From: Methanohalophilus levihalophilus
GTDB taxonomy: Archaea > Halobacteriota > Methanosarcinia > Methanosarcinales > Methanosarcinaceae
Direction: 5' to 3'
Assembly (NCBI RefSeq): GCF_017874375.1
Contig: NZ_JAGGLK010000003.1
Span: 372,001 to 436,000, forward strand
DNA: 64,000 bases
The position numbers and the translations under genes were made by a program. The notes under the pieces are model-generated. The model worked only from the letters and a program-made list of their open reading frames with translations. It had not been told where the DNA came from and did no database searches. Shown piece after piece: positions 7,461 through 63,545 of this stretch (the stretch's first letter is position 1; every line of letters starts with the position of its first letter).

Positions 7461-9116
7461 TTATTGATTTTTAAGGAACAGTAGTGCAAAGAGAAGAAGG
7501 GCTACTATAAAGCCTGCAATCCCAAGATTTGCAATTCCAGTTTCGGGCTGTGTTGCGAGATACGCAGATGCTATCAGGATTATTGAAACAAAAACATATT
7601 TTGCCGCCGAATCCATAATCCTATCACGCCTTATTTGCCGGCTTTTCTCTTCCAGTTTCTCTATGCGGTATCCCCTGATGGTTTCAATAACATCGTTGAT
7701 TCCCTGTGGCAGATTCTTAAAGATTTCAAGATACTTATCGCCTTCAAGCTGGAAATATTCTGCAGCCCTGAATGGTGAATATCTCTGGATCATTACCCTG
7801 GTTATAATTGGTCTTGCGTCATCAATAATGCTGAATTTGGGATCAAGCTCAAGGCACACTCCCTCAATCAGGACAAGTGCCCTTTCAAGTGTGGAGAAAT
7901 CGCTTGGCAGGGATAAATCATATTTCAACGCAAGGTTTGCGTAACTGTCATTTTGCCTTTCCCCAAGGGAATAATTTTGCTTGGCAATCAGATCGTCAAG
8001 ATCAAGTTTGAACTTCCGTGTATTGATATCATTTTTGTTTATATTCGCAACTTTAAGGAATGCTTCAAAGGCGATATCAACATTTTTCTTGTATATCCCA
8101 TAGAAAAGATTCAGCATATTGCGCCTTAATTCATCGTCAATTATTCCGACAGCGCCAAAATCTATGTATGCAATTCCTCCGTCTTCCTGAATAAGGATGT
8201 TTCCAGCATGTGGATCTGCATGATATACGCCGTCGAGGTAAACCTGCTTCAGGTAACTTGAACTGATAAGATGGGCATAGTGTGATCTTTTTTCCCGGTC
8301 CATGGTAGGTAGGTCTTTTACAAGTTTCCCTTCCATGTATTCCATCACAAGGACACTTTCGGTACAATAGTCTTCATGAACTGCCGGGATACGTACTTCA
8401 TCGAAGTCTGCGAATGCTTCATGAAAGCGTTTAAGGTTACGGGCTTCATTCCTGAAATCAAGTTCCTTGTTTAGTAGTTCCCGGAATTCATCAAGAAATT
8501 CATCAAAATTTATGTTCTTCCCGAAACCTCCGACCCTGACTATGATGGGTTTGAGATCATTTATTATTGACAGGTCAACATTAATTTTGTCGATCAACCC
8601 CGGACGTGCTACTTTTACCGCAACTTTCTGGCCATCGAGGACTGCCTCGTAAACCTGTGCTACAGACGCACTGGCAATCGGTTTTGTGTTGAAGTTATCA
8701 AAGAAATTGTTGATGTAAGACTCATCGACTGCAGTAGTTTGATTACGATTTGCACCTGAGCCCCCGATTGTACACTGGAATCCTTCAAAAGATCGAATCA
8801 TTTCACTAAATTCAGATGGCCTAACCTTGTCCTGAAGCCGGGAGAGTTCCTGAATATAACTCTGAGGGAGCAAGTCAGGTCGTTTGCTCATTATTTGTCC
8901 AAGCTTGACAAAAGTAGGTCCCAAATCTTCGAAAGCCCGGCGTAGCTTTATTGCATTCTTCTGGTTTTCCACATCAATGTAGCAGGTTACATTTTTGTTT
9001 GAAACGTAGTTTCTCTGGATCTCTTTGTACAGGAGACTAAAAAGGTTGTATTTTATGAATACGCGAAAGATTTCCAGATACCTTCGAATTTTCCTGTAGA
9101 ATCCCAGAGATGCCAG
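7461..9116 (-). CDS. UbiB/ABC1 (AarF) family atypical kinase, apparent CTG start
   Basis: ABC1/UbiB proteins are kinase-like ATPases linked to isoprenoid lipid (quinone) synthesis. The conserved KxGQ motif (FVKLGQIMSKRPDLLP) is near residue 70 and the A-rich nucleotide loop in KPIASASVAQVYEA near 150. The catalytic region has HADPHAGNILI followed by IAYIDFGAVG, and two hydrophobic helices lie at the C-terminus (about 500-548). The first GTG (8972) would remove a family-conserved N-terminal helix (RYLEIFRVFIKYNLFSLL). Reading upstream, the frame stays open for 48 codons with no ATG, GTG or TTG. It begins with CTG at 9116-9114, eight bases after GAGGAG and directly after an in-frame TAA. I therefore annotate the CTG start, giving 551 residues, the normal family length. 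A frameshift is the alternative. Confidence 0.85.
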   Translation of the reverse strand: MASLGFYRKIRRYLEIFRVFIKYNLFSLLYKEIQRNYVSNKNVTCYIDVENQKNAIKLRRAFEDLGPTFVKLGQIMSKRPDLLPQSYIQELSRLQDKVRPSEFSEMIRSFEGFQCTIGGSGANRNQTTAVDESYINNFFDNFNTKPIASASVAQVYEAVLDGQKVAVKVARPGLIDKINVDLSIINDLKPIIVRVGGFGKNINFDEFLDEFRELLNKELDFRNEARNLKRFHEAFADFDEVRIPAVHEDYCTESVLVMEYMEGKLVKDLPTMDREKRSHYAHLISSSYLKQVYLDGVYHADPHAGNILIQEDGGIAYIDFGAVGIIDDELRRNMLNLFYGIYKKNVDIAFEAFLKVANINKNDINTRKFKLDLDDLIAKQNYSLGERQNDSYANLALKYDLSLPSDFSTLERALVLIEGVCLELDPKFSIIDDARPIITRVMIQRYSPFRAAEYFQLEGDKYLEIFKNLPQGINDVIETIRGYRIEKLEEKSRQIRRDRIMDSAAKYVFVSIILIASAYLATQPETGIANLGIAGFIVALLLFALLFLKNQ

Positions 9117-9129
9117 TTAACCAACTCCT

Positions 9130-9299
9130 CGATAAATTTCAATATATCATTAATTGTATTACATTATATTTGAATGTCAAGGATAGGAATGCGAAAAATC
9201 GGTTTACTCAATTAGACTTCAAAAATTGGCATTGTCTCAAATATTATTTTATTGTCAATACCAAAGTGTTTTTATTTATCCCGCCTATGAGTCAATACC
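9130..9299. promoter_or_regulatory. Divergent promoter region ubiB-like / thiI
   Basis: AT-rich intergenic stretch between two divergent genes. On the plus strand, a T-rich TATA-like element (about 9267-9276) lies some 25 bp before the thiI ATG, which has no ribosome binding site, so thiI is probably leaderless. On the minus strand, the AT-rich run near 9155-9170 could serve the ubiB-like gene. No ORF is convincing here. Confidence 0.4.
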
Positions 9300-50839: not shown

Positions 50840-50908
50840 GTTACCACATTGTATTTTCTTAAATACATCTTTTATATCTGTCGTACAATATCATTATGAG
50901 GTGTTCAA

Positions 50909-51889
50909 CTGGAAATTCTCTGGCTAAATCAGGATGATGTGAAGGCGGCTCTTGACATGCCTTCTGCGATGGCTGCAGTGGAAAATGCATTTTTTGCACA
51001 TGGAAAAAAGAAAGTCCAGATGCCTCCAAAACCCTATCTTTATTTCCCCAAACATAATGGTGATTTGCGCACAATGCCCGCGTTTCTGGAAGAAGACGAC
51101 ATTGCAGGGGTTAAAATTGTAAATGTGCACCCTGAAAACCGGGAAAAAGGTTTGCCAACTGTAATGGCTGTATTTGTTCTTAATTCAACAGAAACTGGTG
51201 CACCGCTTGCAATCATGGATGCCACTCATCTTACTGATATGCGTACAGGTGCGGCAGGTGGAGTTGCTGCAAAATACCTTGCACGAAAGGATTCAAAAAT
51301 TGCCGGTTTTGTCGGGGGTGGTAATCAGGCAAAAGCCCAGTTGCTGGCCTTGTCCGAAAACTTTGATCTTGAGTGCGTGAAAGTTTATACTAGAAGCATT
51401 GCTTCAGCAAGTGCTTTTGCTTCTTTTGCGGGAGAACTTTTGTCATGCGACGTTATTATTTCAGCAACAATTCAGGATGCGTGTAATGCCGATATAGTGG
51501 TGACAACAACTCCTTCGAGGGAACCGATTGTCAAAGAAGAATGGATTTCTGAAGGTACACACATTAATGCCATCGGGGCGGATGCACAGGGAAAAGAGGA
51601 ACTTGATCCGATGATTTTGAAAAATGGCAGGGTTATAGTTGATGATAAGACACAGGCGTTCCATTCCGGTGAAGTAAACGTTCCTCTTAGTTCAGGAATA
51701 ATTTCCGAAAAGATGATTTGTTGTGAGATCGGTGAAGTTGTTGTTGGTTTGAAGGAGGGAAGAATTTCGGATAGTGGCATCACTATTTTTGATTCCACAG
51801 GACTTGCCATACAGGATGTTGCAGCAGGCAATCTGGTATATAAGGAAGCCTTAAAAAGAGGATTTGGTCAATCTCTCAGAATGTTTTAA
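50909..51889 (+). CDS. Ornithine cyclodeaminase/alanine dehydrogenase family (archaeal Ala), apparent CTG start
   Basis: NAD(P)-dependent amino acid oxidoreductase of the mu-crystallin family; the closest well-studied archaeal member is an alanine dehydrogenase. PPKPYLYFPKHNGDLRTMPA is near residues 37-56. The catalytic-site region MDATHLTDMRTGAAGGVAAKYL is near 101-122, followed by the NAD motif AGFVGGGNQAKAQL near 132-145. TTTPSREPIVKEEWISEG is near 202-219. The GTG at 50939 would cut the conserved N-terminus (EILWLNQDDVKAALDM). The frame remains open only to a TGA at 50897-50899, and the sole start-like codon is CTG at 50909-50911. GAGGTG sits five bases upstream of it. I annotate that CTG, giving 326 residues. 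Confidence 0.88.
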   Translation: MEILWLNQDDVKAALDMPSAMAAVENAFFAHGKKKVQMPPKPYLYFPKHNGDLRTMPAFLEEDDIAGVKIVNVHPENREKGLPTVMAVFVLNSTETGAPLAIMDATHLTDMRTGAAGGVAAKYLARKDSKIAGFVGGGNQAKAQLLALSENFDLECVKVYTRSIASASAFASFAGELLSCDVIISATIQDACNADIVVTTTPSREPIVKEEWISEGTHINAIGADAQGKEELDPMILKNGRVIVDDKTQAFHSGEVNVPLSSGIISEKMICCEIGEVVVGLKEGRISDSGITIFDSTGLAIQDVAAGNLVYKEALKRGFGQSLRMF

Positions 51890-62464: not shown

Positions 62465-63183
62465 TTCAGGAAGCATCCCTGATTGAAGTTTTCTGTGCCG
62501 TGCAGGGTGAAGGTCCCTATGTAGGGGTTCGGCAGGCGTTTGTGAGGTTTTCAGGCTGCAATCTTAATTGCAACTATTGTGATACTCCAGTCACACCTCC
62601 TGCCGTTTGCAAGTACGAAACTCCCGGTCAGGTGGCTTCATTCTCGGATGTAAATAATCCAATGGATCCTGCACGTGTAGATCAACTAATAGAATCTTAT
62701 GATAAAATCCATTCAGTATCCCTTACAGGTGGAGAACCTCTCCTTCATGCTGATTTCATCTCCTCTCTTTCAACTGAAGTTCCGCTTTACCTTGAAAGTA
62801 ATATGACGCTGCCGGATATGGCTAGAAAAGTAAAAGATAGAGTTCGCTATGTTTCCGGTGATGTAAAACTTGATCCCGGCCTCCCCGGGGATGAATTTGA
62901 TTCACATTTAAAGAACACAATTGAATGCTTCCGCAATCTTCGAAATACGGATTCTCGGGATTGCTTCTGCAAAGTTGTTGTTACTTCAAAAACGTCTGTA
63001 GATGACTTGATTTCAATTATTGAAGAAATTCATGGCTTTGTTAGCTGCGTAATACTCCAACCTGTAACTCAGGAGCAAATGGCCGCCAGTCCATCCTTTT
63101 TGCTGGATTGCCAGCATAGCTTGCTGGATATGGTTGATACTCGTATAATTCCCCAGACTCACAAGATGTGGGGGTGCTTATGA
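62461..63183 (+). CDS. queE: QueE: 7-carboxy-7-deazaguanine synthase (radical SAM)
   Basis: Rearranges 6-carboxytetrahydropterin to 7-carboxy-7-deazaguanine. The 240-residue protein has FCAVQGEGPYVGVRQAF near 11-27, the iron-sulfur motif SGCNLNCNYCDT near 31-42 and SLTGGEPLLHAD near 88-99. The start is TTG overlapping the DUF366 stop (TTGA). The end overlaps queD as ATGA. Confidence 0.95.
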   Translation: MIQEASLIEVFCAVQGEGPYVGVRQAFVRFSGCNLNCNYCDTPVTPPAVCKYETPGQVASFSDVNNPMDPARVDQLIESYDKIHSVSLTGGEPLLHADFISSLSTEVPLYLESNMTLPDMARKVKDRVRYVSGDVKLDPGLPGDEFDSHLKNTIECFRNLRNTDSRDCFCKVVVTSKTSVDDLISIIEEIHGFVSCVILQPVTQEQMAASPSFLLDCQHSLLDMVDTRIIPQTHKMWGCL

Positions 63184-63545
63184 TGACAAATGCAAATACT
63201 AAGATGAAACTCGGAATCGTTGAATACATTGACAGTGCACACTATCTCCCGGGACATGAGACTTGTGGGATAGTGCATGGGCACACGTACAAGACTGAAA
63301 TTGTGATTGAAGGTGAAAAGAAGGAAACCGGTATGGTCATGGATTTCTATGAAATTAAAACAACTGTGCGTGAAGTCCTGAAGGAATTCGATCACCGATT
63401 GCTAAATGATATTCTTGAATTCCCGAGCGCTGAAAATATGTGTGAGGCCATCCATGCCCGTTTGTCAGAAGCATTGGGATATCCGGTTTCTGTGAAGGTG
63501 TGGGAAGGGGAAGGCAAGTGGTGTCAGATTAGTGACTTTGACTGA
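63180..63545 (+). CDS. queD: QueD: 6-carboxytetrahydropterin synthase / PTPS family
   Basis: Forms 6-carboxytetrahydropterin from dihydroneopterin triphosphate, the first committed step to preQ0. The 121-residue protein has SAHYLPGHETCGIVHGHTY near 19-37 with zinc-ligand histidines and the catalytic cysteine, then VMDFYEIKTTVREVLKEFDH near 53-72. Start chosen at ATG 63180 (ATGA overlap with queE); ATG 63183 is equally possible. Confidence 0.94.
   Translation: MMTNANTKMKLGIVEYIDSAHYLPGHETCGIVHGHTYKTEIVIEGEKKETGMVMDFYEIKTTVREVLKEFDHRLLNDILEFPSAENMCEAIHARLSEALGYPVSVKVWEGEGKWCQISDFD

Follow-up and report, generated by a model that had tools for sequence, protein, structure and literature searches.

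The question raised by the 64,000-nucleotide stretch of DNA from the halophilic methanogen Methanohalophilus levihalophilus analysed here (the window; contig positions C3:372001-436000 of the source genome, G000) is where translation of a UbiB-family gene begins when its N-terminal region holds no standard start codon. According to the original prediction, the gene uses a CTG, as the nearest ATG, GTG or TTG would cut off conserved sequence. The layout behind this proposal proved exact. The CTG occupies 9116-9114, right after a TAA and eight bases past GAGGAG, the GTG at 8972 is the nearest start if only ATG, GTG and TTG are allowed, and the 48 open codons upstream of it, which include RYLEIFRVFIKYNLFSLL, contain none of the three. 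The elements of the locus are as follows.

7461..9116, minus strand: UbiB/ABC1-family atypical kinase gene, a stop-to-stop open reading frame of 551 codons when read from the CTG
9114..9116, minus strand: putative CTG start codon, where the sister species has TTG
9117..9119, minus strand: in-frame TAA adjoining the CTG on its 5′ side, likewise in the sister species; rules out an in-frame start upstream
9125..9130, minus strand: Shine-Dalgarno motif GAGGAG, its sister-species counterpart being GAGGA
8973..9113, minus strand: codons 2-48, preceding the first standard start; under purifying selection and apparently translated
8970..8972, minus strand: GTG, codon 49 and first standard start; rejected as the start
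9162..9171, minus strand: probable TATA-like element AAATATAATG of presumed function, lying in a stretch without differences between the two species

The encoded protein carries an ABC1 kinase-like domain (Pfam PF03109, E = 8.9e-63) and matches the NCBIfam model TIGR01982 (UbiB) with E = 2e-99. It is a member of the UbiB family rather than UbiB proper, its 333 bits lying below the curated equivalog cut-off of 487.55 for bacterial UbiB. The N-terminal KxGQ motif of the family is present as KLGQ at the corresponding position of each of the eight sequences in the comparison. M. levihalophilus has a further family member, 53% identical and started by ATG (C3:237806-239419, L002), for which the seven other Methanohalophilus genomes yielded no counterpart; genome G009 carries two copies as well.

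Removal of conserved family sequence by the GTG start is borne out by the TIGR01982 match, whose first aligned residue is number 10 of the protein as read from the CTG. Thus, about 39 family residues would be lost if translation began at codon 49. At the local GC content of 32%, a run of 48 codons devoid of stops and standard starts has a chance probability of about 0.002, and conservation is far stronger evidence than this for a translated segment. In a codon-by-codon alignment with the closest orthologue, that of the sister species G007 (named MAG record L017; 86% protein identity), codons 2-48 comprise 25 identical codons, 16 synonymous and 5 non-synonymous changes and one codon aligned to a gap. 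Differences fall on codon positions 1, 2 and 3 in the ratio 4/1/18 (p of about 2e-5 against equal positions), with dN of 0.057 and dS of 1.10. Even codons 2-10 alone show four synonymous differences and one non-synonymous difference. The excess of synonymous over amino-acid changes, 16 to 5, argues that the segment is translated. GAGGAG offers a 5-base match at an aligned-core spacing of 7 to the CTG, the modal value at ATG starts of the genome. When codon-substitution likelihood ratio and Shine-Dalgarno score were combined, the best standard start of the gene scored about 90 log-units below the CTG.

Comparison of the same position in close relatives, which the original prediction had proposed as a check, showed that the sister species has TTG in precisely this place, preceded by the same TAA and a matching Shine-Dalgarno motif. 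As TTG, TAA and motif all align with the CTG context, no frameshift is needed to account for the reading frame. The sequence before the start is TCGAGGAATCGTTAA in the sister species and TCGAGGAGTTGGTTAA in M. levihalophilus. Codon 6 is TTT in the former and TTC in the latter, and aligns with ATG in the remaining close orthologues that were read, from three more Methanohalophilus species and five additional genera of the family, and likewise in paralogues and order-level relatives. Hence the proposal of real CTG initiation is supported by the comparison but gains a refinement: the ancestral start appears to have been the ATG at codon 6, with the CTG/TTG representing a relocation by five codons upstream. 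The simplest history would be that the common ancestor of the two species lost the codon-6 ATG and moved its start to an upstream TTG equipped with a Shine-Dalgarno motif, and that TTG later changed to CTG in the M. levihalophilus lineage, the direction of this last step being unproven with two taxa. Taken together, comparison of the genomes shows for this gene a segment that has evolved as translated sequence, an aligned TTG, a conserved Shine-Dalgarno motif and a lack of alternative starts.

The original prediction also relied on a second CTG-started gene. We came upon this case independently, by comparing the 62 conserved genes of the window with their relatives.

50909..51889, plus strand: archaeal alanine dehydrogenase (TIGR02371), full-length from residue 2
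50909..50911, plus strand: putative CTG start codon, supported by multi-species alignment
50898..50903, plus strand: Shine-Dalgarno motif GAGGTG

Its product matches TIGR02371 with 473 bits, residues 2-326 aligning to model positions 1-325, and the start context reads GAGGTGTTCAA-CTG. The start codon is CTG in both M. levihalophilus and the sister species, TTG in G001-G006 and G009, and ATG in most other genomes. A base-call error common to two separately sequenced species seems a very unlikely source of this CTG.

These observations bear directly on other explanations of the UbiB locus. Translation from the GTG at 8972, with the 48 upstream codons untranslated, would use the first codon that standard start lists accept and would retain the KxGQ motif, which lies downstream. 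However, it is very improbable given the strong amino-acid purifying selection on codons 2-48, a UbiB model that begins at residue 10, and the presence of the upstream segment in all other Methanosarcinales orthologues read. Still harder to credit is a start farther upstream in another frame followed by a frameshift or reinitiation. A candidate codon exists in the out-of-frame TTG at 9124, eight bases upstream of the CTG, but the sister species lacks it (ATCGTTAATTGG), and we saw no sign of a slippery site.

At 9116 the two species differ by one T/C exchange, and each species was represented by one genome, so that the CTG might be a misread TTG, i.e. an ordinary weak start. We regard such an error as improbable, since CTG starts do occur in the clade, as the alanine dehydrogenase of two separately sequenced species indicates, and no other hint of poor sequence was seen within the UbiB reading frame. 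Similarly small is the probability that the gene is a decaying pseudogene that has lost its start while the 53% identical, ATG-started paralogue takes over. The fate of the gene in congeners would fit this idea: the orthologue is a broken remnant in G005 (C2:1483499-1483961; L015, L016) and is absent from G002 and G003. In M. levihalophilus, however, the 551-codon frame is intact with dN far below dS, and of the polarised amino-acid changes since the split from the sister species 12 fall on its own branch and 17 on that of the sister, which argues against decay. We therefore favour, with a probability of roughly 90%, a Shine-Dalgarno-driven start at the CTG 9116, reached by relocation from ATG via TTG to CTG within a wider tolerance of near-cognate starts in Methanosarcinia. 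Counting against it are the rarity of CTG starts in annotated prokaryotic genes and the status of the sister genome as a MAG.

Mechanistically, GAGGAG would set the small ribosomal subunit with CTG 9116 in the P site, where the initiator tRNA-Met would accept the codon despite its first-position mismatch. Decoding of near-cognate starts by initiator tRNA-Met with one mismatch, and with methionine as the first residue, is established in bacteria and eukaryotes. From this we infer methionine as the N-terminal residue of the UbiB protein; initiation efficiency and any regulatory meaning are likewise inferred. The shift would be one from a weak to a weaker start and may fit a low demand for the protein.

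To place the two CTG genes in context, contig positions 1-456000, about a fifth of the genome, were surveyed for genes comparable with the sister species or G004. A first scan, in which BLAST alignment edges flagged missing starts, gave too much noise, and the combined score described above was used instead, with final calls made partly by eye. In the 351 testable genes, ATG was the best standard start 264 times, TTG 49 times and GTG 38 times, and near-cognate starts (CTG, ATA, ATC, ATT or ACG) were assigned to six, perhaps nine. Besides the two CTG cases, multi-species alignment confirmed four genes, listed here with three probable ones that were checked in one or two relatives.

C3:310163 (L053:10163, L116): rfcS, replication factor C small subunit; ATA behind GGAGGA
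C3:76022 (L041, L178), minus strand: PhoU-like regulator; ATC behind GAGGG
C3:83428 (L042:3428, L198): mmp3, methanogenesis marker 3 (TIGR03268); ACG
C3:319612 and C2:582423 (L238, L248): mtbC, dimethylamine corrinoid protein, both copies; ACG behind AAGGAGGTTGTAACT
C3:56506, plus strand: feoB; probable ATT
C3:261558, minus strand: exosome Csl4-like gene; probable ATT
C3:153930, minus strand: uncharacterised gene; probable ATA

A codon-blind control list with relaxed thresholds contained a mixture of all codons, with false positives present. Restricted to a spacing of 7-9, the commonest at ATG starts of the genome, and a difference of at least 10, the list consisted, artefacts aside, mostly of one-mismatch codons, although the entries are few and their assessment was in part visual. 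Flagged by the survey but rejected were genes with pyrrolysine TAG readthrough (e.g. C3:316586 and C3:321341), antisense shadow frames, the candidates at C3:290117, C3:208072 and C3:67473, each with an ATG a few codons further on, and the TAG-interrupted frames at C3:60190-61567. At the last site (C3:60190-61570, minus strand), two adjoining genes each have an in-frame TAG where the sister species and G004 have sense codons, due to either pyrrolysine insertion or decay. In the gene at window positions 63138-63545, the ten codons before the first GTG (NSPDSQDVGV) show strong conservation, and a Shine-Dalgarno-like match is present.

Near-cognate starts of these other genes are kept across species, which supports genuine near-cognate initiation in the clade, so that the CTG of the UbiB gene is no isolated oddity. 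The rfcS start is ATA, ATT or ATC in 55 of the 69 genomes read across family, order and class, with a GGAGG-like motif a few bases upstream; Methanosarcina-like genomes among those read have ATT. Its third base is free to vary, yet the codon is rarely ATG: ATG was found in a subclade of six Methanohalophilus (G001-G006) and in G016, G036 and G047, TTG in G021 and GTG in G031 and G033. In G028 and G024, CTT or CTC directly follows ATG, and in G077 an in-frame TAA directly precedes the ATA. The PhoU-like gene starts with ATC in M. levihalophilus and its sister, with ATA in nine other Methanosarcinaceae genomes and with ATG in most outgroups. For mmp3, ACG is present in six Methanosarcinaceae genomes from five genera, and GTG in G019/G022. 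The mtbC start, identified in the survey as ACG behind AAGGAGG, is ACG in M. levihalophilus, G002-G005 and G009; other genera have ATT or ATG at the corresponding codon or close to it. Our search of the open-access literature uncovered no description of AUH or ACG starts conserved in these archaea.

A precedent exists in E. coli, where infC and pcnB start with AUU. Like the Methanohalophilus cases, these codons belong to authentic genes, stand behind Shine-Dalgarno motifs and are missed by standard lists. Unlike them, infC is autoregulated through IF3, a factor lacking in that form in archaea, and the starts described here concern several unrelated genes and include CTG and ACG. Archaeal initiation relies on aIF1, aIF1A and aIF2 and not on bacterial IF3. 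When aIF1 (SUI1 family) was compared for lineage-specific changes that might loosen start selection, it was well conserved and nothing stood out.

Closer in phylogeny are small ORFs of Methanosarcina mazei, a member of the same archaeal class, where Ribo-seq assigned a CTG start to 5% of 314 unannotated small ORFs (PMC11456600). Those ORFs are small and of unknown function, whereas the UbiB gene is full-length and conserved and has its start codon backed by comparison between species. A change of an orthologous start from TTG to CTG, as proposed for the UbiB gene, has been recorded once among 2468 ancestral TTG starts of closely related prokaryote genomes, and annotated prokaryotic genes contained six switches to CUG or AUU among 68,906 ancestral starts (Belinky et al., PMC5622118). 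Our six to nine in 351 can be set beside these counts as an indication only, as the statistics differ and annotation hides such starts.

In summary, the locus is best read as one instance of a clade-wide near-cognate habit that annotation appears to have overlooked. Gene callers generally permit only ATG, GTG and TTG. Such genes are thus annotated with truncated N termini, 48 residues short in the case of UbiB, or omitted, and the error spreads via databases, structure predictions and cloning. Initiation in Methanosarcinia is likely to accept near-cognates regularly, in about 2% of genes, with some starts kept class-wide, which would imply selection against ATG, perhaps as a means of keeping expression low or regulated. 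One may speculate that the long persistence of AUH in rfcS suggests selection for restrained expression. MtbC is the corrinoid protein of methylamine methanogenesis, and its ACG start argues against a restriction of near-cognate starts to minor genes. Together, rfcS, mtbC and mmp3 bear on whether archaeal initiation tolerates near-cognates beyond the textbook view and whether these codons are retained because they set the level of expression.
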